A stretch of 64,000 nt of DNA. Origin: Alteraurantiacibacter aquimixticola. Its GTDB lineage: Bacteria > Pseudomonadota > Alphaproteobacteria > Sphingomonadales > Sphingomonadaceae. The notes beneath the pieces were generated by a model. That model was not told the origin of the DNA. It saw only the letters and a list, made by a program, of their open reading frames with translations, and ran no database searches. Position numbers and translations under genes: made by a program. Below are positions 5,031-47,944 of this stretch, piece after piece. The DNA is taken from positions 62,001 to 126,000 of the forward strand of contig NZ_SSHH01000003.1 in assembly GCF_004965515.1 (NCBI RefSeq), given 5' to 3'. Within the stretch, counting starts at the first letter, position 1, and every line of letters starts with the position of its first letter.

Positions 5031-5465
5031 TTATTCGCTTTCAAGTCCGCAGTCTTGTGATTGGACCTTCGTCCTCCACATGCTCCAGCGGAATGCCGTC
5101 GCCGTGCCCGCCAGCGTGCCCGGAATGCCAAAGAGAAGGCCCACCGCGCCTTCTCCTACAAGTGCGGCAAGTAGCGTCGCCGGAATCAGGAACCCAAACA
5201 GCGCCCCGGCAATCATGTAATTTACTGGGCTTTCCATGCCTGCTTCACCAAGCAGTGCAGTGAGTGGCAAGCCGATTGCGATTGCTGCCGCGAGCACCAG
5301 CAGGCCAGCATAGACGAGCGGCAGGAAAGCGGCCCAGATCATTTCCACCCCGCTGTGCTCCAACCCCGACCAGAAGACGGGAATGGTTATGAGCAGAAAT
5401 GGCGCACCGCCTGCCGACGTGCCCCACAGCACAGCTGCGGCCAGGTTGCGGATTGCATCTCTCAT
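5031..5465 (-). CDS. Small integral membrane protein, unknown function
   Basis: A 144-residue protein with four hydrophobic segments: near residues 8-30, 40-70, 80-105 and 105-125. It carries no recognisable catalytic or binding motif. A strong ribosome-binding site (AAGGAGG) sits 7 bases before ATG 5465. It is the last gene of a minus-strand cluster after the membrane protein at 5520-5894, separated by a GNRA-type hairpin. The pair may be co-transcribed under the GbsR/MarR regulator encoded upstream. I do not recognise the family. Confidence 0.65.
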   Translation of the reverse strand: MRDAIRNLAAAVLWGTSAGGAPFLLITIPVFWSGLEHSGVEMIWAAFLPLVYAGLLVLAAAIAIGLPLTALLGEAGMESPVNYMIAGALFGFLIPATLLAALVGEGAVGLLFGIPGTLAGTATAFRWSMWRTKVQSQDCGLESE

Positions 5466-5488
5466 ATCAGCCTCCTTACGCGACCGGC

Positions 5489-5512
5489 GGGGACAGGCTT
5501 TCGCCTGCCCCC
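5489..5512 (-). terminator. Intercistronic GAAA-loop hairpin
   Basis: Read on the minus strand, ten-base arms (one G-U pair) close a GAAA tetraloop. It lies between the two membrane-protein genes and has no T run after it, so it may be an RNA-stabilising or attenuating structure rather than a full terminator. Confidence 0.4.
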
Positions 5513-5519
5513 TGTCGCA

Positions 5520-5894
5520 TCATCCGTTCAGCACATGCGCTTCGCGGATCCAGCGTCCGACCTTGCGCCCGAACTTCGCGATCGCGTGCATGTTGAAGAA
5601 GTGCCATCCGCCCAGGACCAGCACGGCGAGGCCGACCTTGGTGGCGATGAAGCGGATTGCCTCGGGCCCGGTCGTCGGCTCGCGTCCAAATTGCAGGGCG
5701 AGCAAGATGAAGCCCAAGTTCACGAGGTAGAAGCCGACCACCAGCAAGTGGTTGGTGCTGCGCGCCAGCTTCTCGTCATGGCCGAAGCAGTCGATCAGGA
5801 AAATTTCGCCATTGGAGCTGAGCGTGCGGGCGACCCAGACGGTCAGCCCGATGCTGAAGGCGAGATAGAGGGCATAGCTTACTTCGATCAACAT
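5520..5894 (-). CDS. Small membrane protein under GbsR/MarR-type control
   Basis: A 124-residue protein with about three membrane segments (residues ~5-25, ~48-68, ~85-105), ending in a basic tail (AKFGRKVGRWIREAH). It has no enzyme motif I can name. An excellent AGGAGG site precedes ATG 5894. An inverted repeat, TTTCGG-N6-CAGAAA, sits 16-33 bases before the start and matches the perfect version in front of the GbsR/MarR gene upstream. This makes it the likely main target of that regulator. Homologues in sphingomonads are, as far as I know, annotated only as integral membrane proteins. Confidence 0.7.
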   Translation of the reverse strand: MLIEVSYALYLAFSIGLTVWVARTLSSNGEIFLIDCFGHDEKLARSTNHLLVVGFYLVNLGFILLALQFGREPTTGPEAIRFIATKVGLAVLVLGGWHFFNMHAIAKFGRKVGRWIREAHVLNG

Positions 5895-5909
5895 CGTTTC
5901 CTCCTGTTG

Positions 5910-5927
5910 TTTCGGTAAATACAGAAA
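5910..5927. promoter_or_regulatory. Putative GbsR/MarR operator (copy 2)
   Basis: TTTCGG-N6-CAGAAA, an inverted repeat with one mismatch, lies in the leader/promoter of the membrane protein gene 5520-5894. It has the same arms and same 6-base spacer as the perfect repeat at 6561-6580 in front of the regulator gene. Confidence 0.6.
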
Positions 5928-5993
5928 TATTTTTGCGAAGTTCGGGGAAGGTGGGTCTGGCGTCTCCTTTTCAGCTTTCTGGTTGGGTTGGGG

Positions 5994-6539
5994 TCACCCC
6001 TTCCCAGACTTCCCCGGGATCAGCCGCGCGACCTTGCCGCCCAGCTTCATCAGCGTGACGAGCGTGGATTTGGGCAGGCGGCGAACATCCTCATACCAAT
6101 TGGCGAGCGTGCCGATGAATTCGTGCATCCGGCCGATCCGCTCGCGGACATGGGCGGGCACGTCCTTGCGGCCCTCCAGCTTCTCGGCGAGCTCGCGCAG
6201 GGTCTCGATGGTTGGGTCGATCTCGCGCTTCTTGCGCTCGGCACTGATGCGCATGAGCATGTCCCACAGGTCCGTCTCGGCCACGAAATGGTCGCGCCGG
6301 TCGCCCGCGACATGCTGGCGGCGGATGATGCCGTAGCCCTGCAATTCCTTGAGCGCGTTGGAGACGTTGGAGCGGGCAAGGCCCAGCGTCTCGCAAACCT
6401 CCTCCGCATGCAGCGGCCGGTCGGACAAATAGAGCAGCGCGTGCACCTGGCTGACCGAGCGGTTCACACCCCAATGGCTGCCCATCTCCCCCCAATGGAG
6501 GATAAAGGCTTCGGCCTCGGGGATATCGGTGATCTTCAC
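5994..6539 (-). CDS. GbsR/MarR family transcriptional regulator
   Basis: A 181-residue winged-helix regulator. Residues ~25-90 contain the HTH (QVHALLYLSDRPLHAEEVCETLG, then LARSNVSNALKELQGYGIIRR, then a wing). The C-terminal half is helical and basic and probably dimerises. GbsR-type proteins of this class control osmolyte or membrane-protein genes in other bacteria; the ligand here is unknown. A perfect inverted repeat 22-41 bases before its start suggests autoregulation, and the near-identical repeat before the next gene downstream on the strand makes a small regulon plausible. Confidence 0.88.
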   Translation of the reverse strand: MKITDIPEAEAFILHWGEMGSHWGVNRSVSQVHALLYLSDRPLHAEEVCETLGLARSNVSNALKELQGYGIIRRQHVAGDRRDHFVAETDLWDMLMRISAERKKREIDPTIETLRELAEKLEGRKDVPAHVRERIGRMHEFIGTLANWYEDVRRLPKSTLVTLMKLGGKVARLIPGKSGKG

Positions 6540-12496: not shown

Positions 12497-14800
12497 ATGG
12501 CAAATGCGGAAGCAGCCGAACTCGAAGCAGGCACGATCAAGCTGCAGGTTGCTGCCGCGCGGCAGGAGGAATCGGGCCGCGGCGTCGCCCGCATGCCGCG
12601 TTCGGCCTTCCAGGCATTGGGGATCACCGAAGGCGATCCCGTCGAAATCGAAGGCAAGCGCGTCTCCGCCGCCATCGCCATGCCTGCCTATGAGGAGGAC
12701 GAGGCGCTGGAACTGATCCGGCTGGATGGCCTTCAGCGCGCCAATTCCGAAACCGCCAGCGGCGAGCATGTGCAGGTCCGCCGTGCGCAGCCCAAGCCCG
12801 CGACGCGCGTTGTCTTCGCCCCCGCGCGCCGCGAAATGCGCCTGCAGGGCCCGACCGAGGCGCTGAAGCGCGTCTTCTTCGGCCACCCGCTGACCGCTGG
12901 CGACCTTGTCGCCACGCACGGGCAGCAGCCGGTGCAGAACATGCCGCCCGAAGTGCGCCGCATGTTCAACGCGCCCGCCTATGCGCTGACGCAGATACGC
13001 CTGCAGGTCATCTCCACCGTGCCCAAGGGCATCGTCCATATCGATGACGAGACGGTGGTCGAGCTGCGCGCCGAATTCGAGGAACCGCGCGACGGCCGCG
13101 GCACGGTCAATTATGACGATGTCGGCGGTATGCAGGACACGATCACCGCCTTGCGCGAGATGGTCGAGCTGCCGCTGCGCTACCCCGAGCTTTTCACCCG
13201 CCTTGGCGTCGATCCGCCCAAGGGCGTGCTGCTGCATGGCCCGCCCGGCACCGGCAAGACGCGTCTTGCCCAGGCGGTCGCCAATGAAAGCGACGCCGAA
13301 TTCTACACCATCAACGGCCCCGAAATCATGGGCAGCGCCTATGGCGAGAGCGAGAAGCGCCTGCGCGAGGTTTTCGAGGAAGCCGAGCGGACCGCGCCTG
13401 CCGTGGTCTTCATCGACGAGATCGATTCGATCGCGCCCAAGCGGGAGCGCGTGTCGGGCGAGGCGGAAAAGCGGCTGGTCGCCCAGCTGCTGACGCTGAT
13501 GGACGGCCTCACCAAGTCCAACATCGTCGTCATTGCCGCCACCAACCGTCCCGATGCGATCGACGAGGCGCTGCGCCGTCCGGGCCGCTTCGACCGCGAG
13601 ATCGTGGTCGGCGTGCCCGATGAAAGCGGCCGCCGTGAAATCCTCGCCATCCATACGCGCGGCATGCCGCTGGGCGAGGGCGTGGACCTGGGCGAATTGT
13701 CGCGCTCCACGCATGGCTTTGTCGGCGCCGACCTTGCGGCGCTTGCGAGAGAAGCGGCGATCGAGGCGGTGCGCCGGATCATGCCCAAGCTCGACCTTGA
13801 AGCGCGCGAAATCCCGCCCGAAGTGCTGGCGGAACTGCAAGTCGAGAAGAACGATTTCCGCGAGGCGCTGAAACGCGTCCAGCCTTCGGCCATGCGCGAA
13901 GTGATGGTGCAGGCGCCGAAGATCGGCTGGGACGATATTGGAGGCGTGGACGAGGCGGAGGAGAAGCTGCGCGAAGGCGTTGAGCTGCCGCTGAAGAACC
14001 CCAAGGCCTTCGAGCGGCTGGGCATCCGTCCGGCCAAGGGCTTCCTGCTCTACGGCCCGCCCGGCACCGGCAAGACCTTGCTCGCCAAGGCCGTCGCGAA
14101 GGAAGCTGAAGCTAACTTCATATCCATGAAGTCGAGCGACCTCTTGTCCAAATGGTATGGCGAGAGCGAGCAGCAGATCAGCCGCATGTTCGCCCGCGCC
14201 CGTGCGGTCGCGCCTTGCGTGATCTTCATCGACGAGATCGACTCGCTGGTCCCCGCACGTGGCTCCTCAGGCAATGAGCCGCAGGTGACCGCGCGCGTGG
14301 TCAACACGATCCTGGCCGAAATGGACGGGATGGAGGAACTGAACTCCATCGTCGTGATCGGCGCCACCAACCGCCCGGCACTGGTCGATCCTGCGCTGCT
14401 GCGCCCCGGCCGTTTCGACGAGCTGATCTATGTCGGCGCGCCCGACAAGGGCGGCCGCGAGCATATCCTGAAGATCCACACGCAGAACATGCCGCTGGCC
14501 GATGACGTTGATCTGGCTGCCCTCGCTGCCAAGACTGAGCGCTATACGGGTGCGGACCTGGAAGACGTGGTGCGCCGCGCCGGCCTCAACGCCATTCGCC
14601 GGACCGACGAGCCGGAGAACGTCACCGCCGCCGATTTCAAGGAGGCGCTGGAAGACAGCCGCCCCACCGTCACCGAACGGATGGAAGCCGAATATGCCAG
14701 GATGAAGGGCGAGCTGAAGCGCAAGGCGCTGGAAGTGAAACCCATCGGCTTCATCCATGAAGGCATGGTGGAATCGACGCGGGACCAGAAGCACGACTAG
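12497..14800 (+). CDS. CDC48/VAT-like double-AAA ATPase
   Basis: A 767-residue relative of archaeal VAT and eukaryotic Cdc48/p97, with the full architecture: N-terminal substrate/adaptor domain (~1-200), D1 AAA module (Walker A GPPGTGKT 248-255, Walker B Glu308, Arg finger in RRPGRFDRE) and D2 module (Walker A 520-527, Walker B Glu580, LRPGRFDEL). Family members form hexamers that unfold or segregate protein complexes. A bacterial copy is not universal but recurs in some alphaproteobacteria. The C-terminus has no obvious HbYX proteasome-docking motif (it ends QKHD). It is monocistronic; the MscS gene downstream is convergent. Confidence 0.93.
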   Translation: MANAEAAELEAGTIKLQVAAARQEESGRGVARMPRSAFQALGITEGDPVEIEGKRVSAAIAMPAYEEDEALELIRLDGLQRANSETASGEHVQVRRAQPKPATRVVFAPARREMRLQGPTEALKRVFFGHPLTAGDLVATHGQQPVQNMPPEVRRMFNAPAYALTQIRLQVISTVPKGIVHIDDETVVELRAEFEEPRDGRGTVNYDDVGGMQDTITALREMVELPLRYPELFTRLGVDPPKGVLLHGPPGTGKTRLAQAVANESDAEFYTINGPEIMGSAYGESEKRLREVFEEAERTAPAVVFIDEIDSIAPKRERVSGEAEKRLVAQLLTLMDGLTKSNIVVIAATNRPDAIDEALRRPGRFDREIVVGVPDESGRREILAIHTRGMPLGEGVDLGELSRSTHGFVGADLAALAREAAIEAVRRIMPKLDLEAREIPPEVLAELQVEKNDFREALKRVQPSAMREVMVQAPKIGWDDIGGVDEAEEKLREGVELPLKNPKAFERLGIRPAKGFLLYGPPGTGKTLLAKAVAKEAEANFISMKSSDLLSKWYGESEQQISRMFARARAVAPCVIFIDEIDSLVPARGSSGNEPQVTARVVNTILAEMDGMEELNSIVVIGATNRPALVDPALLRPGRFDELIYVGAPDKGGREHILKIHTQNMPLADDVDLAALAAKTERYTGADLEDVVRRAGLNAIRRTDEPENVTAADFKEALEDSRPTVTERMEAEYARMKGELKRKALEVKPIGFIHEGMVESTRDQKHD

Positions 14801-37187: not shown

Positions 37188-41480
<4,293 letters not shown>

Positions 41481-41514
41481 GCTCCTTACCGCCAGCCACG
41501 GCTGACACGAATTG

Positions 41515-41553
41515 GCCCCGCCGGAGCGAACCCTCCGGCGGGGCTTTCGTTTT
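41515..41553 (+). terminator. rpoBC terminator
   Basis: Perfect twelve-base arms (41515-41526 and 41533-41544) with a six-base loop are followed by TTTCGTTTTCT on the plus strand. Confidence 0.92.
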
Positions 41554-41595
41554 CTACCCTTGCCCAGTGCCCCGCGCTCACGCATATCAAAAGCC

Positions 41596-42951
41596 ATGAG
41601 CAATCCAGCACTTGATGCGATATTGACTGCCCATGCCGCCAGCGGGGACGCGCGCATGCTTGTGCCCGCTCTGGATGTCTGCGCTGGCGAGGAAGACATA
41701 TCCCGCGTGCTCGACCTGGCAGAAGAGACTTCACAAGACAGCCTGTCCGATGCGGAGTCGGTGCGGTTGGCGCGTGCTGCGCTGGAGGCTGGTCGTCCGC
41801 AATTGGCCCTGCGTTTTTCAGCGGGCCTGCCCGAAGCCATGCCAAGCGAGGTGGGCGCGCTGCTTTACATGGGCGTATTGGACGAGGCGGAATCTCGCTA
41901 TCGTGAGGTGGTGGCGGAAAATCCGGCGCTGGAACAGCCGGAATTGCTGGAGCGCTTGATGGTCGCGCGCAATGACGCCGGCGAAGAAAGCAATGTGGTG
42001 CAGCTCGCCACAACGCGAAGCCATGCCCCCGCCCGCGGCCCGACTTCGAATGCCGAATTGGACAATGCGCGGCTTTCCTTCACCGATGCGGCTAGCGTTA
42101 CGTTCAAGGACGTTGGCGGGCACAAGATCGTCAAGAAACAGATCGACCGCCGGATTATCGCCCCTTTCCGCAAGCCTGCCCTTTTTTCGCGCTTTCGTCG
42201 CAAGTCGGGCGGCGGTGTCATGCTCTATGGTCCGCCCGGTTGTGGCAAGACCTTGCTCGCCCGCGCCACGGCTGGCGAATGTGAGGCGCGTTTCATCAAC
42301 GTGCCGGTCACTGATGTGCTCGACAAGTTCATTGGCGAACCCGAGCGGAAGCTGGCAGCCATTTTCGAAGATGCGCGTCGGGAAACGCCAACCGTGCTGT
42401 TCTTTGACGAGATAGAGGCGCTGGCGTCCAAGCGCGGCACTTCCAGCTCGAATCATGAGATGGCGATCGTCTCCACCTTCCTCTCAGAGATGGATGGCTT
42501 TGCGCAGAACAATGAGGGCGTGCTGATTCTGGCGGCGACCAACATGCCTTGGGGCGTAGACCCGGCGTTTCGCCGCTCGGGTCGGTTCGATCGCATGCTG
42601 TTTGTACCTCCGCCCGACAAGGTGGCGCGCGCCGAAATCCTGCGTCTGCAACTGGATGGAAGGCCTGGAGCGGGAACGCTCGATTTGAATGCTATTGCCG
42701 CCAAGACGTCGGGCTTTTCCGGCGCGGATATCCAGAACCTTGTCGACACGGCGGCCGATTTCGCAATCGAGGAATCGATTGATGCAGGAGGAGAGGTGCC
42801 CATCTCCAAAGCCCATTTTGCAGAAGCGCTGGAAGAGGTGAAGGCCACCACGTTCGAATGGCTCACTACGGCCCGAAATTTTGCGAAATATGGCAATAGT
42901 GGGGGCCAATATGACGAGATTGCCGAATTCGTCGCCAAGCATGGAAAGTGA
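41596..42951 (+). CDS. AAA+ ATPase with N-terminal repeat domain (first gene of an uncharacterised trio)
   Basis: A 451-residue cytoplasmic ATPase. Residues ~1-150 are helical with TPR-like pairs (ARAALEAGRPQLALRFSAG, MGVLDEAESRYREVVAENP). Residues ~180-440 are one classical AAA module: Walker A GPPGCGKT 212-219, Walker B LFFDEIEAL with Glu272, sensor-1 Asn316 in AATNMPW, arginine finger region RRSGRFDR 326-333, and a C-terminal small domain (GFSGADIQNLVDTAADFAIEESI). It resembles the AAA part of FtsH/CDC48 but has no protease domain. The ATG at 41596 follows AAAAG weakly. Its stop overlaps or nearly touches the next gene, so the three genes form one unit. Confidence 0.85.
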   Translation: MSNPALDAILTAHAASGDARMLVPALDVCAGEEDISRVLDLAEETSQDSLSDAESVRLARAALEAGRPQLALRFSAGLPEAMPSEVGALLYMGVLDEAESRYREVVAENPALEQPELLERLMVARNDAGEESNVVQLATTRSHAPARGPTSNAELDNARLSFTDAASVTFKDVGGHKIVKKQIDRRIIAPFRKPALFSRFRRKSGGGVMLYGPPGCGKTLLARATAGECEARFINVPVTDVLDKFIGEPERKLAAIFEDARRETPTVLFFDEIEALASKRGTSSSNHEMAIVSTFLSEMDGFAQNNEGVLILAATNMPWGVDPAFRRSGRFDRMLFVPPPDKVARAEILRLQLDGRPGAGTLDLNAIAAKTSGFSGADIQNLVDTAADFAIEESIDAGGEVPISKAHFAEALEEVKATTFEWLTTARNFAKYGNSGGQYDEIAEFVAKHGK

Positions 42952-42956
42952 CATCC

Positions 42957-43343
42957 ATGCGTGATGACGGGCGATACCGGATTAACGATGAAGCTGCGCG
43001 CTTGCCCGTTCCCGGTACACAGCTACTGATCTTCCTTTCCCTGCCGCTGACAGTCTACTTGTGCCTCCGATACGCGGTGTTGTTCGCCTTCATTCCTGGT
43101 GCCATTGGTCTACTTATCGGCGGGCGGCATCGCTGGTTCGATCCGCTGATGGGTGTATTGACGTTCCTGCTGAACATTTTCGGCAATTTCGTGATCGTCA
43201 CGACCGTCGAACTTGGGTTGGAGCACGTCCTGCTGTTGTTCTATTTGACTGATTTGATAATCGCGATCGTGTTTCTGCCGCTGTTCTATTCTGTCTGGCA
43301 GCAACAGCGTACAGTGCAATTGCGCGAAGCGATGGCGCTATGA
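42957..43343 (+). CDS. Small multi-span membrane protein of the AAA trio
   Basis: A ~128-residue membrane protein with about four hydrophobic segments (~20-38, ~38-55, ~60-85, ~85-112) after a short basic/acidic N-terminus (MRDDGRYRINDEAARLPV). No motif I recognise. Start is ATG 42957; a GTG at 42948, which overlaps the ATPase stop codon, is an alternative. Its stop overlaps the ATG of the TPR gene (ATGA at 43340-43343). Such tight packing implies the proteins are made in fixed ratio, and this one is the likely membrane anchor or channel of the set. Confidence 0.72.
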   Translation: MRDDGRYRINDEAARLPVPGTQLLIFLSLPLTVYLCLRYAVLFAFIPGAIGLLIGGRHRWFDPLMGVLTFLLNIFGNFVIVTTVELGLEHVLLLFYLTDLIIAIVFLPLFYSVWQQQRTVQLREAMAL

Positions 43344-44272
43344 GTGAGGCCTTGTGGAATGCCATGGCGCGGGCCCAGGAACTCACTCGCCGCAGTGCGT
43401 ATGGCGCGGCGATTGAGGCTTGGCGCGATGTGCTGACCGAAGATCCGATGATTGCTGATGCCCATGCTGGCCTTGCGCAATGCCTGATACAGGAACACCG
43501 CATGATAGGAGCAAGAGCAGAGGCGACCCGTGCGCTGGAGCTGGATGCCGAAAACACGCTGGCAATGATGGCTCTGGCGCTATGCGATTTCTTCGAAAAC
43601 CGCCGCAAGAGCGCGCTCAGCCGGCTGGGCGAGGTGCTGGCGATCAATCCGCGCGATGTGGATGCCTTGCAGATGAAGTCGCAATTCTTGCGTGATCGCG
43701 GGGATTGGCAGGCGGCCGATGATGCCATCAGCGAAGCGCTGGAGATATCGCCGGGCAACCGCGCATCCTTGCTGGAAAAGGCGCGGGTTAGTCATTCGCG
43801 CGGTCGGCTTGATGCAGCAGAGCAGCAAGCGCGCACGCTGGTGGCCGAGGATCCCCGGGACGTTGGCGCGCTGGTGCTACTGGGTGAGATTTGCCGTGAT
43901 CGCGGGAACGTGGATGAGGCGTATCGCCTGGTCATGTCTGCCCTTTCTATCGATGCCAATAATGCCGAGGCGCTTGATCTGATGGGCGGAGTGAAGCTCT
44001 CCCGCAATCTTATCGGCGGGATCTATTGGCACATTGCGCGCTTCCTGCGCCGGCTGGGCAATCGCTGGTTGTTGTGGTTCGCCTGGGGCCTGTGGTTGGG
44101 ATATATGATGGTGCTTTCCACCATGGGTTATTTCGAAGCGTCGGAACTTGTACGTTGGCTGTTTGTCGCTGCTTATCTGGCGTTTGCTCTCGGCATTTAC
44201 GCCAATCGCTTGCTGGTTGACCGGATCGTTCGCAAGGAACTGCAGCAATTCCGCATGAGCAGTGACTACTGA
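43340..44272 (+). CDS. TPR protein with C-terminal membrane anchors (third gene of the trio)
   Basis: A 310-residue protein. Residues ~1-210 consist of six or so tetratricopeptide repeats, seen in segments such as SAYGAAIEAWRDVLTEDPMIADAHAGLAQCLI, ALSRLGEVLAINPRDVDALQMK and AEQQARTLVAEDPRDVGALVLLGEIC (each described by its first residues). Two membrane helices follow near 240-262 (LWFAWGLWLGYMMVLSTMGYF) and 268-288 (WLFVAAYLAFALGIYANRLLV). It is presumably a scaffold that tethers clients or the AAA ATPase to the membrane with its TPR face in the cytoplasm. Its codon choice, like that of its two partners, is richer in A/T third bases than rpoC or gltX. Confidence 0.78.
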   Translation: MSEALWNAMARAQELTRRSAYGAAIEAWRDVLTEDPMIADAHAGLAQCLIQEHRMIGARAEATRALELDAENTLAMMALALCDFFENRRKSALSRLGEVLAINPRDVDALQMKSQFLRDRGDWQAADDAISEALEISPGNRASLLEKARVSHSRGRLDAAEQQARTLVAEDPRDVGALVLLGEICRDRGNVDEAYRLVMSALSIDANNAEALDLMGGVKLSRNLIGGIYWHIARFLRRLGNRWLLWFAWGLWLGYMMVLSTMGYFEASELVRWLFVAAYLAFALGIYANRLLVDRIVRKELQQFRMSSDY

Positions 44273-44321
44273 TCCAGCTCGCTGCTCGCCATCGCCGTGT
44301 CAGCGCGCTAAAGGCCCCGTC

Positions 44322-45647
44322 ATGACCACCACCCGCTTTGCTCCCTCGCCCACGGGGCGCCTCCATGTCGGCAATATCCGCACGGCGCTGCATAACTGGA
44401 TGCTGGCGAAGAAGGCGGGCGGGCGCTTCCTGCTGAGGATCGACGATACCGATGCGGAGCGGTCGAAGGAGGAATATGTCGAGGCGATCCGCGCCGACCT
44501 TGCCTGGCTTGGCCTCGATCCCGATGGCGAGGAGCGGCAGTCGCAGCGGCTGGCGCTATATGAAGACGCGTTCGAAAAGCTGAAGGCGGAAGGCCGCGTC
44601 TACCCCGCCTATGAGACTGTGCAGGAGCTCGATCTCAAGCGCAAGATCCAGCTGGGGCGCGGCCTCCCGCCGATCTATGATCGCGCCGCGCTCGCCCTGA
44701 CCGATGCGGAGCGGGCCGCCAAGGAAGCCGAGGGCATCACACCGCACTGGCGCTTCAAGCTCGATCAAGACGAGCCGATCACATGGGAAGACGGTGTTCG
44801 CGGACCGCAGAAGTTCGATCCTGCACAGCTCTCCGACCCGGTCATTCGCCGCGCCGACGGGTCATGGCTCTACATGCTGCCGAGCGCGGTGGACGACATC
44901 GATATGGGCGTGACCGATGTGCTGCGCGGTGAAGACCATGTCTCCAACACTGCCGTTCAAATTCAAATGTTTACCGCACTTCATGCTGCACCTCCGGCGT
45001 TCGCGCATGAGGCGCTGCTGGTGGGCCGCGAAGGCAAGCTGTCCAAGCGGCTCGGCTCGCTCGGCTGCGATGCCTTTCGCGAGCAGGGGATCGAACCGCA
45101 GGCCCTTGTCGCCATGCTGGCGCGGCTGGGCACATCGCTGCCGGTCGAAGCGATTGCGGACCGGCAGGTGCTGGTCGACAGCTTCGACCTTTCAACCTTC
45201 GGCCGCGCGCCCGCACGTTTCGACGATGACGAGCTGGCGCGGGTGAACACGGCACTGCTGCACGCCATGCCCTTTGAAGAGGTCGCAGGCCGCCTGCCCG
45301 AAGGAATGGACGAAGCCGCCTGGGAGGCGATCCGCCCCAATATCGAAACGCTCGCCGATGTGGGCGAATGGTGGACCATCGTCACCGGCCCTATCGATGC
45401 GCCCGCATTGGAGGCAGAGGACAAGGCCTATTGCGCGCAGGCTGCCGAAGAGCTGGCCCGGACGGGCGATGACTGGAAGGCGCTGACCTCTGCGTTGAAG
45501 GAGAGCACGGGCCGCAAGGGGAAGCCGCTTTTCCTGCCATTGCGACAGGCGCTGACCGGCATGGATCACGGGCCCGACATGGCCAGCCTGCTCCCGCTGA
45601 TCGGGGCCGCAGAAGCCAAGGCCCGGCTGGAACGCGCCGCCGCCTGA
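44322..45647 (+). CDS. gltX: Glutamyl-tRNA synthetase
   Basis: A 441-residue class I synthetase that charges tRNA-Glu. The HIGH-type motif is in FAPSPTGRLHVGNIR (HVGN) at residues ~5-18, and the KMSKS-type motif is KLSKR in GREGKLSKRLGS. ATG 44322 was chosen because the family begins MTTTRFAPSPTG; the open frame upstream overlaps the end of the TPR gene. Many alphaproteobacteria carry two GltX copies, one of them able to use tRNA-Gln; the sequence alone does not tell me which this is. Confidence 0.95.
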   Translation: MTTTRFAPSPTGRLHVGNIRTALHNWMLAKKAGGRFLLRIDDTDAERSKEEYVEAIRADLAWLGLDPDGEERQSQRLALYEDAFEKLKAEGRVYPAYETVQELDLKRKIQLGRGLPPIYDRAALALTDAERAAKEAEGITPHWRFKLDQDEPITWEDGVRGPQKFDPAQLSDPVIRRADGSWLYMLPSAVDDIDMGVTDVLRGEDHVSNTAVQIQMFTALHAAPPAFAHEALLVGREGKLSKRLGSLGCDAFREQGIEPQALVAMLARLGTSLPVEAIADRQVLVDSFDLSTFGRAPARFDDDELARVNTALLHAMPFEEVAGRLPEGMDEAAWEAIRPNIETLADVGEWWTIVTGPIDAPALEAEDKAYCAQAAEELARTGDDWKALTSALKESTGRKGKPLFLPLRQALTGMDHGPDMASLLPLIGAAEAKARLERAAA

Positions 45648-45695
45648 TCCCGCGGGGCGTTCGCTAAAAACGACAATTGGTGACATTTACCCCCT

Positions 45696-45711
45696 TTCGC
45701 AGTTGCGAAAA
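45696..45711. promoter_or_regulatory. Palindrome TTTCGCA-GT-TGCGAAA upstream of the ZnuD-like receptor
   Basis: Perfect seven-base arms with a 2-base centre sit 56-71 bp before the receptor start and 18 bp upstream of the Zur-like box. The same arms with centre CT occur at 10883-10898. Confidence 0.5.
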
Positions 45712-45728
45712 GCTCGCTAGGCGGGCAA

Positions 45729-45745
45729 ATGTTATACCATTACAT
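45729..45745 (+). promoter_or_regulatory. Zur-like box
   Basis: ATGTTAT-ACC-ATTACAT, an inverted repeat with one mismatch, resembles the AT-rich dyads bound by the zinc repressor Zur in alphaproteobacteria (GTTATA...TATAAC-type core). It lies 21 bp upstream of a receptor with a His-rich loop, which fits zinc control. Confidence 0.55.
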
Positions 45746-45766
45746 AGTTGCGGAGTGCACTGTTTC

Positions 45767-47944
45767 ATGATCCGTCGTCCCCTCGCCACCCTGCTGGCCG
45801 GCACTGCCTTGTCCTGTCTTCCCGCAGCTCCCCTTCTTGCGCAGGAGCAGGACGAGGGTGCCGTACCCCATGTGCATGACCCGCATGACGAGGAAGACGT
45901 GATCGTAGTCACCGCAGGCGGGCTGGAGCGGCTCGACATGCTCGCCGGCACCTCGGTGGTGACCGATGCGCAGCTGCAACGGAACATGGCGGGTCAGGTG
46001 GGCGAGGTGCTGGAAAGCCTGCCCGGCGTTTCCGCCACCGGCTTTGCCCCCGGCGCCTCGCGCCCCGTCCTGCGCGGCTTCCAGGGTGAGCGCGTGCGCG
46101 TGCTGGTCGACGGCATCGGCAGCATCGATGCTTCCAACACCAGCGCCGACCATGCCGTGACTATCGACCCGCTTACCGCCGAGAGCATCGAGGTGCTCCG
46201 CGGCCCCGCCGTGCTGCTCTACGGCTCGAGCGCGATCGGCGGCGCGGTGAATGTGATCGACCGGCGTATCCCGCATCGCATTCCCATCGATGGCCTCCGC
46301 TTCGATGGCGTGGTCTCCGGCGATACCGCTACCGACCTGCGCGAAGTGGGCGCATCGCTCGATGTCGGCCTCGGCCGCAATTTCGCATGGCATGTCGATG
46401 GCTCCTTCCGCGAGACGGACGACCTTGAGATCGCCGGTTTCACGCTCTCCGATGAACTGCGCGCCGACCTGCTGGCCGACGCGGCCGAGGAATTCGAGGA
46501 AGGGCATGAGGAAGAAGCCGATGAACTGATCGAGGCGGCCAACCTTTCCGGCATCGTTCCCAACAGTGCCAGCGAGACGCTCTCGCTCGGCACGGGCCTC
46601 ACCTGGTTTTCGGGCCTCAATTCGATCGGCGTGTCCGTCTCCTATTACGACACCGATTACGGTATCCCCATCGCGCCCGGCATGGGTCATGCCCATGGTG
46701 AGGAAGAGGAGGATCACGACGAGGAGGAGCATGAGGAGGAAGAAGGTCACGACCATGGCGAGGAGCCGGTCACCATCGGCCTCGAGCAATTCCGCGCCGA
46801 TCTGCGCGGCGAGTTCCACCTCGGCGAAGGCTTCTTCCATGACCTCGTCACACGCTGGGGTTATTCGGATTACACCCACACCGAATTCGAAGGTGACGAA
46901 GTCGGCACGGTGTTCGACGTCGAAGGCGTCGAGGGCCGTGTCGAACTGATCCAGAGCGAGCAGAACCTTGGCGGTGGCACCACGCTGCGCGGCTCCCTTG
47001 GCGGGCAGTTCTTCTATCGCGATTTCGTTGCGACAGGGGCCGAAGCCTTCGTGCCGCCCAACAGCACCGAGCAATATGCGCTCTTCACCTTGCAGGAAGT
47101 GCGCGCCGGGCCGTTCGAGGCGGAAATGGGCGCGCGCTGGGAAAACACGACGCAAGAGGCCGATACGATCGCGGTCAGCCGCAGCTTCGACACGTTTTCG
47201 GGGGCGTTGGGCCTCTCCTACAGCTTCGATTCCGGAATTCGCGCAGGCGTCAACTTCAGCAGGGCCGAACGTGCGCCCTCGGCTGAAGAGCTGTTCGCCG
47301 ACGGTCCGCATATCGCCACCAGCCAGTATGAGCTGGGCGATCCTGACCTTGGCACCGAAGCGGCCTGGGGCGTGGAGGGCTATGTCCGTGCTTCCATCGG
47401 CGGGGCGGACATGCGCCTTGCCGTCTATCGCAACTGGTTCGACAATTTCATCTACCTGTTCGATACCGGGCTGGAAGAGGACGGGCTGGCGCTCACCCAA
47501 TATTTGCAGCAGGATGCCGACTGGTTTGGCGTGGAGGGAGAGGCGAGCGTGCCGCTCTTCTCAACCGGCAATGGCGTGCTGGTGGGTGATGTGGGCGGCT
47601 CCTATATCCGCGCGACGCTGGACGATGGCTCCCCCGTGCCGCGCATCCCGCCGCTCAGCCTTACCGGCGCGCTGGAATGGCAGGGGGAGAAGCTGGACCT
47701 GCGCAGCGAGGTCGAATGGTACGATGCGCAGGACCGCACCGCGCCCAACGAAACCGCCACCGATGGCTTTGCCCATGTGAACCTCTCCGCCAATTTCCGC
47801 CCCTTCGGCGACGAACGGCTGAGCGTGTTGCTGCAGGCGGACAATATCTTCGATGCCGAAGGCCGCCGCCATGCGAGCTACACCAAGGACTTCGTCCCGC
47901 TGGCAGGGCGGAACTTCAAGGTGAGCGTGCGCACGCGTTTTTGA
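45767..47944 (+). CDS. ZnuD-like TonB-dependent receptor, histidine-rich
   Basis: A 725-residue outer-membrane receptor with signal peptide (ending PAAPLLA), plug domain (VLESLPGVSATGFAPGASRPVLRGFQG and LRGPAVLLYGSSAIGGAVNV) and 22-strand-type barrel ending in an aromatic C-terminus (VRTRF). Two features indicate zinc: His-rich sequences at the N-terminus (HVHDPHDEED) and in an extracellular loop near residue 310-330 (alternating His with Glu/Asp, such as HDEEEHEEEEGHDHGEEP), and a Zur-like box before the gene. It probably imports zinc across the outer membrane with TonB-ExbB-ExbD. ATG 45767 begins the signal peptide. Confidence 0.88.
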   Translation: MIRRPLATLLAGTALSCLPAAPLLAQEQDEGAVPHVHDPHDEEDVIVVTAGGLERLDMLAGTSVVTDAQLQRNMAGQVGEVLESLPGVSATGFAPGASRPVLRGFQGERVRVLVDGIGSIDASNTSADHAVTIDPLTAESIEVLRGPAVLLYGSSAIGGAVNVIDRRIPHRIPIDGLRFDGVVSGDTATDLREVGASLDVGLGRNFAWHVDGSFRETDDLEIAGFTLSDELRADLLADAAEEFEEGHEEEADELIEAANLSGIVPNSASETLSLGTGLTWFSGLNSIGVSVSYYDTDYGIPIAPGMGHAHGEEEEDHDEEEHEEEEGHDHGEEPVTIGLEQFRADLRGEFHLGEGFFHDLVTRWGYSDYTHTEFEGDEVGTVFDVEGVEGRVELIQSEQNLGGGTTLRGSLGGQFFYRDFVATGAEAFVPPNSTEQYALFTLQEVRAGPFEAEMGARWENTTQEADTIAVSRSFDTFSGALGLSYSFDSGIRAGVNFSRAERAPSAEELFADGPHIATSQYELGDPDLGTEAAWGVEGYVRASIGGADMRLAVYRNWFDNFIYLFDTGLEEDGLALTQYLQQDADWFGVEGEASVPLFSTGNGVLVGDVGGSYIRATLDDGSPVPRIPPLSLTGALEWQGEKLDLRSEVEWYDAQDRTAPNETATDGFAHVNLSANFRPFGDERLSVLLQADNIFDAEGRRHASYTKDFVPLAGRNFKVSVRTRF

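Follow-up and report, generated by a model that had tools for sequence, protein, structure and literature searches.

The rpoC-gltX interval of Alteraurantiacibacter aquimixticola carries three open reading frames in one direction (41596-44272 of the window, the whole 64,000-nucleotide stretch of DNA analysed here), encoding an AAA ATPase, a small membrane protein and a TPR membrane protein. Judged from sequence, this trio is conserved and not a product of chance, because eight other proteobacterial genomes have these genes in the same order, seven of them elsewhere on the chromosome, and its dN/dS values are low. The three proteins may together form a threading motor, built on the AAA protein and lacking a protease, that sits on the cytoplasmic side of the inner membrane and would extract, disassemble or refold membrane proteins; the probability of this reading is put at about 45%.

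Arrangement of the three genes

The order in the window is rpoC, a terminator, the AAA gene, the small membrane protein gene, the TPR protein gene and gltX:

41514..41553 (also given as 41514-41545), + strand: intrinsic terminator of rpoC, 5' of the trio, with a 13-bp stem and a T-rich tail after it
41596..42951, + strand: gene 1, AAA ATPase, 451 aa, with Pfam AAA and AAA_lid_3; ATG start kept in the sister genome G936
42957..43343, + strand: gene 2, small membrane protein with four predicted spans, 128 aa; start kept in G936
43340..44272, + strand: gene 3, TPR protein with two C-terminal membrane spans, 310 aa; TPR matches in Pfam and to a held-out profile

The terminator is strong, sits between rpoC and the trio and is accompanied by a similar repeat in G936 (L071). 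The earlier note had read the three frames as a closely fused unit between the rpoBC terminator and gltX, and both parts of this reading hold: all three frames exist, a terminator was found after rpoC with gltX downstream, the ATG at 42957 lies 5 nt past the AAA stop (42951), and the stop of the small gene overlaps the start of the TPR gene as ATGA at 43340. The small protein most likely begins at this ATG and not at GTG 42948, since its G936 counterpart starts at the same residue (MRDDGRYRI). Beyond gltX, the window encodes a TonB-dependent receptor with a long His/Glu-rich stretch (45677-47944), possibly a zinc receptor.

The AAA protein

The first protein matches Pfam AAA (2.3e-39) and AAA_lid_3, with no peptidase domain by Pfam search and no hydrophobic segment found in the window protein, in agreement with the earlier description of a single AAA module lacking a protease domain. 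That description overlooked two parts, a TPR-like N-domain and a C-terminal W-helix:

41605..41979, + strand: N-terminal all-helical TPR-like domain, residues 4-128; helix pairs in the model, mostly at high confidence
42229..42252, + strand: Walker A GPPGCGKT, residues 212-219; identical across the 12 members save one position (C/A/T)
42325..42339, + strand: pore loop 1 KFIGE, residues 244-248, aromatic-hydrophobic-Gly; 245 is F/Y/W and 247 is G in every one of the 12 members
42394..42411, + strand: Walker B VLFFDE, residues 267-272; D271 and E272 invariant
42847..42894, + strand: clade-specific C-terminal helix TTFEWLTTARNFAKYG, residues 418-433; motif common to all 15 bacterial members

The Walker A and B, sensor and arginine-finger residues and the aromatic-hydrophobic-glycine pore loop are intact in all 12 aligned members. 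TPR_19 of Pfam is matched in six of nine AAA family members (best 1.7e-10) and by the window N-domain at E 0.41 only; the alignment used for structure prediction consisted of eight proteobacterial rows, the actinobacterial rows being left out. The W-helix follows the AAA lid with the consensus P/S-T-x-x-W-L-x-x-A-R-N, and was recovered by pattern in 15/15 bacterial members (the window and 14 others) and in all archaeal domains except two, which read S-L-I-P-W by eye. It is absent from the Cdc48 and FtsH rows of the alignment.

The window AAA protein reaches none of the NCBIfam cut-offs, and its nearest solved rings, by sequence and fold search, are p97 D2 domains. In profile scores over the AAA domain, members obtain at least 399 bits, archaeal relatives 272-331 and Cdc48 at most 252, and in the tree a 100/100 branch parts the bacterial members and archaeal relatives from Cdc48 and FtsH. 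By these comparisons the TPR-AAA clade is separate from Cdc48 and FtsH, and includes actinobacterial and Altiarchaeota relatives. Elsewhere the window (12497-14800) encodes a true Cdc48, with two rings and the CDC48_N and CDC48_2 domains.

One sentence in a 2024 PSP survey concerns a bacterial "VPS4-like AAA + TPR/6TM" pair (example ACB74714.1), in which the AAA is paired with a TPR/6TM protein instead of snf7 (PMC11237479). This favours an ESCRT-like alternative, in which a Vps4-like AAA disassembles membrane PspA/Vipp1 polymers and the TPR and small proteins replace a MIT-type adaptor. PspA-family genes occur in seven of eight trio genomes, but G341 has the trio and no PspA match, and PspA is common regardless (9/14 control genomes). 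Neither MIT nor Vps4_C is listed for the window AAA at E<=1, and both are absent among the 25 families listed for nine AAA members, yet Vps4_C was detected in the Cdc48 of the window genome. The CdvC model scores 157 bits on the window AAA against a cut-off of 650, below the models of Cdc48, PAN and FtsH, and an ESCRT-like role for the trio is distinctly unlikely.

The membrane partners

The other two products had been described as a small four-span membrane protein and as TPRs followed by two C-terminal helices, and both descriptions agree with the present results. Their main features are:

42975..42992, + strand: N-terminal cytoplasmic motif YRINDE of the small protein; Y, D and E invariant in eight aligned trio loci
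43994..44059, + strand: juxtamembrane segment between the TPRs and the spans; K219, G227 and W230 invariant in eight loci
44069..44197, + strand: two transmembrane helices with a short loop between them, by hydropathy

Hydropathy predicts four spans in the window small protein, which is modelled as four helices at medium confidence (pLDDT 71), and three to four spans across the family; a fold search with the model found no solved fold at E<=0.001. The best conserved stretch of this protein is its exposed Y-x-I-x-D-E-P start (family motif Y-x-[IL]-x-D-E-P, with A in place of P in the window copy), which was met again in the later-found G1031. Holding every other locus out of the small-protein profile in turn gave E-values of 4e-20 or better; with the window and its sister held out, the window copy ranks first at E 1.4. 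Because this copy is too divergent for the held-out profile, it is identified by its position, size and motif.

The third protein matches TPR_19 at 2.5e-18, and its assignment as a TPR protein is firm by profile comparison, since the held-out window copy was recovered at E 8.8e-53. Its predicted spans (residues ~244-260 and ~270-286, by hydropathy) follow a juxtamembrane segment which in most loci has the consensus K-x-x-x-x-x-x-x-G-x-W-W-R. The TPRs should face the cytoplasm, given that the loop between the spans is short and free of K/R and that the flanks are basic. By hydropathy, neither membrane partner has large periplasmic parts, and both show short loops and basic flanks.

Distribution in Pseudomonadota

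Searches with the AAA profile found three members in 301 family genomes, two further members in 399 phylum genomes, four members (three of them new) in 296 genomes from the order of G307, and two further members in 385 class genomes, the four samples overlapping. Each of the eight distinct loci found first (the window, G936, Croceibacterium, G059, G341, G307, G894 and G722; G707 is a near copy) has all three genes, in one order throughout. Two members found later allowed the pattern to be tested anew: the trio is complete in G1031, and G1072, a draft genome, has the AAA gene alone (L199 4287-5678), with partner genes absent alongside. Co-occurrence of the three families is strong, with the trio order, and a membrane TPR partner adjoining the AAA gene, in nine of the ten distinct proteobacterial loci read. 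Run on the 296 genomes, the small-protein profile recovered no carriers beyond the same four (all of them part of the profile, directly or through near copies), apart from one weak match that looks like chance.

At four trio sites (L009, L198, L202 and window 41480-44322) the adjoining genes belong to transcription/translation, namely, by ORF reading, rpoC/gltX, rbfA/truB, fmt/truA and an EF-P-like gene; these may be no more than safe places for insertion. An HSP70-family gene (L016 3111-4283, minus strand, Pfam 1.1e-15) lies immediately upstream of the trio in G059.

The narrow, scattered distribution (3/301 family genomes) suits a specialised client and, with the absence of a protease partner, speaks for a chaperone dedicated to the assembly of one membrane complex, Bcs1- or SpoVK-like, as opposed to a general extractor. 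The neighbourhoods read have no client gene in common, however, and such a chaperone is unlikely.

Relatives in Actinomycetota and Altiarchaeota

Matches in PLSDB at E<=1e-50 comprise ten records, all actinobacterial, and in each of the seven actinobacterial loci read a partner gene lies next to the AAA gene. The gene after AAA is labelled TPR protein or hypothetical protein in five annotated loci, and a TPR frame directly follows AAA in the Nonomuraea locus. The six partners translated (S. goshikiensis, S. anthocyanicus, Actinomyces, Nonomuraea, S. nigrescens and KN37, with NBC_00158 left out) have TPRs and then three to four spans predicted by hydropathy; the tail of a TPR partner gave no match against plasmids. 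A separate small gene is absent from the actinobacterial loci. Homologues are accordingly found outside the complete trio in part, as these AAA and TPR pairs and as the lone AAA gene of G1072.

In Altiarchaeota, the TPR-AAA genes of L183 and L187 lie beside a Yip1 membrane gene directly downstream (5353-6192 and 5589-6200, respectively), and those of L182 and L184 adjoin a large gene that lacks a Pfam match and is predicted to have two spans. Other Altiarchaeota proteins (L010 1304-6107) have one or two AAA domains and the same W-helix, with no TPR N-domain seen. A viral origin of the AAA protein was considered and rejected: the 80 viral-contig matches listed are at 34-41%, none of them extends past query residue 438 into the tail, and none is at the level of AAA members.

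Origin at the rpoC-gltX site

The rpoC-gltX site is readable in 19 genus members, among which the trio is present in G936; in the other 18, gltX and the TonB receptor are in place but the trio is not, and six genus members searched whole gave no AAA member match. The trio is a lineage-specific insertion, as all but one of these 19 genus members lack it there. The earlier note had proposed checking whether related species lack it and had taken more A/T-ending codons as a hint of transfer; the empty site supports that hint and composition does not. The codon bias itself was confirmed, GC3 of the trio being 0.667-0.673 vs 0.80 +/- 0.057 for 46 window genes. Since the G936 trio has a GC3 (0.79-0.81) near that of its own gltX (0.82), low GC3 is a poor witness of transfer: it was rejected as proof of a recent event and is, taken alone, weak evidence. 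Relative to G936, dN/dS is 0.10 for the AAA gene, 0.15 for the TPR gene and 0.39 for the small gene, low values which point to selection for function, with synonymous change in the AAA gene near saturation.

Patchy distribution and lineage-specific insertion would also fit an anti-phage or inter-bacterial conflict module, and IetA profiles do match the AAA domain. The IetA score of 100.9 bits falls short of the cut-off of 510, however, no IetS subtilisin gene is adjacent (rpoC, gltX and genes for two membrane proteins surround the AAA gene in the window), and an effector domain is absent. Several neighbours are housekeeping genes, none of those read resembles a defence gene, and PADLOC gave no defence assignment. 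A role in defence or conflict is very unlikely.

Proposed function

The preferred reading remains a membrane-docked remodelling or extraction motor, because the AAA protein combines a threading pore loop with a TPR-like docking surface and no protease, and is accompanied by two membrane partners. The AAA protein would form a hexamer whose N-domains would dock on the membrane TPR protein, and the small protein would recruit or sense a bilayer substrate through its N-terminal peptide. The ring would pull membrane proteins or their subunits through its pore, leading to their extraction, disassembly or refolding, and would in this respect act like the Msp1 or Cdc48 extraction motors while being a member of neither family. 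The membrane-tethered remodelling machine proposed in the earlier note fits all findings, including the strong co-occurrence, as a function read from the parts.

In a wider form, the TPR-AAA clade of Altiarchaeota, Actinomycetota and Pseudomonadota, with its cytoplasm-facing membrane partners, could constitute an unnamed prokaryotic protease-free membrane-protein dislocase, taking in bacteria the roles that Msp1 and Cdc48 have in eukaryotes; this suggestion is possible but tentative. FtsH is a known bacterial route for the degradation of membrane proteins. If the proposal is true, a conserved protease-free motor acting on membrane proteins would be a second route beside FtsH, and would provide a simple system in which to understand extraction of the Msp1 and Cdc48 type. 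One signature helix and a recurrent membrane partner link the archaeal and bacterial AAA proteins of this clade, so the question can be tested by comparing its versions.

Relation to known systems

In open-access papers, no named system corresponding to a TPR-AAA/membrane operon was found apart from the PSP survey sentence, nor were the three-gene form, the W-helix clade or the Y-x-I-x-D-E-P protein, most subscription papers falling outside that scope. A description under another name exists to the extent that this sentence mentions a probably related pair (PMC11237479). Compared by published description alone, the trio and the pair are probably kin, of the same broad kind: in both, a bacterial classical AAA adjoins a gene for TPRs and membrane spans, and there are archaeal relatives. 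The pair consists of two genes with one 6-span protein, whereas the trio has two membrane proteins, of four and two spans; its AAA is VPS4-like, whereas neither MIT nor Vps4_C was found in that of the trio. Gene fission, by which four plus two spans would equal the six of TPR/6TM, was kept as a lead only, the actinobacterial partners showing three to four spans by hydropathy. The trio is a conserved and nearly unstudied system of scattered bacteria with archaeal relatives.

EccA of type VII secretion also carries a TPR-type N-domain on an AAA protein, but belongs to another AAA group, its model giving 37 bits on the window AAA against a cut-off of 466. Both sequence and fold place the D2 ring of Cdc48/p97 nearest among AAA domains, whereas the window protein has one AAA ring, lacks CDC48_N and falls in a separate clade; the true Cdc48 of the same genome has both CDC48_N and two AAA rings. 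FtsH shares the AAA domain and a motor based at the membrane, but the window AAA has neither an M41 peptidase nor a transmembrane segment of its own. With Msp1/ATAD1 the likeness lies in the working idea only, that of a protease-free AAA extracting membrane proteins: Msp1 carries its anchor in itself, whereas no Msp1-type N-terminal anchor or hydrophobic segment is present in the window AAA, and the anchors of the trio are separate proteins.
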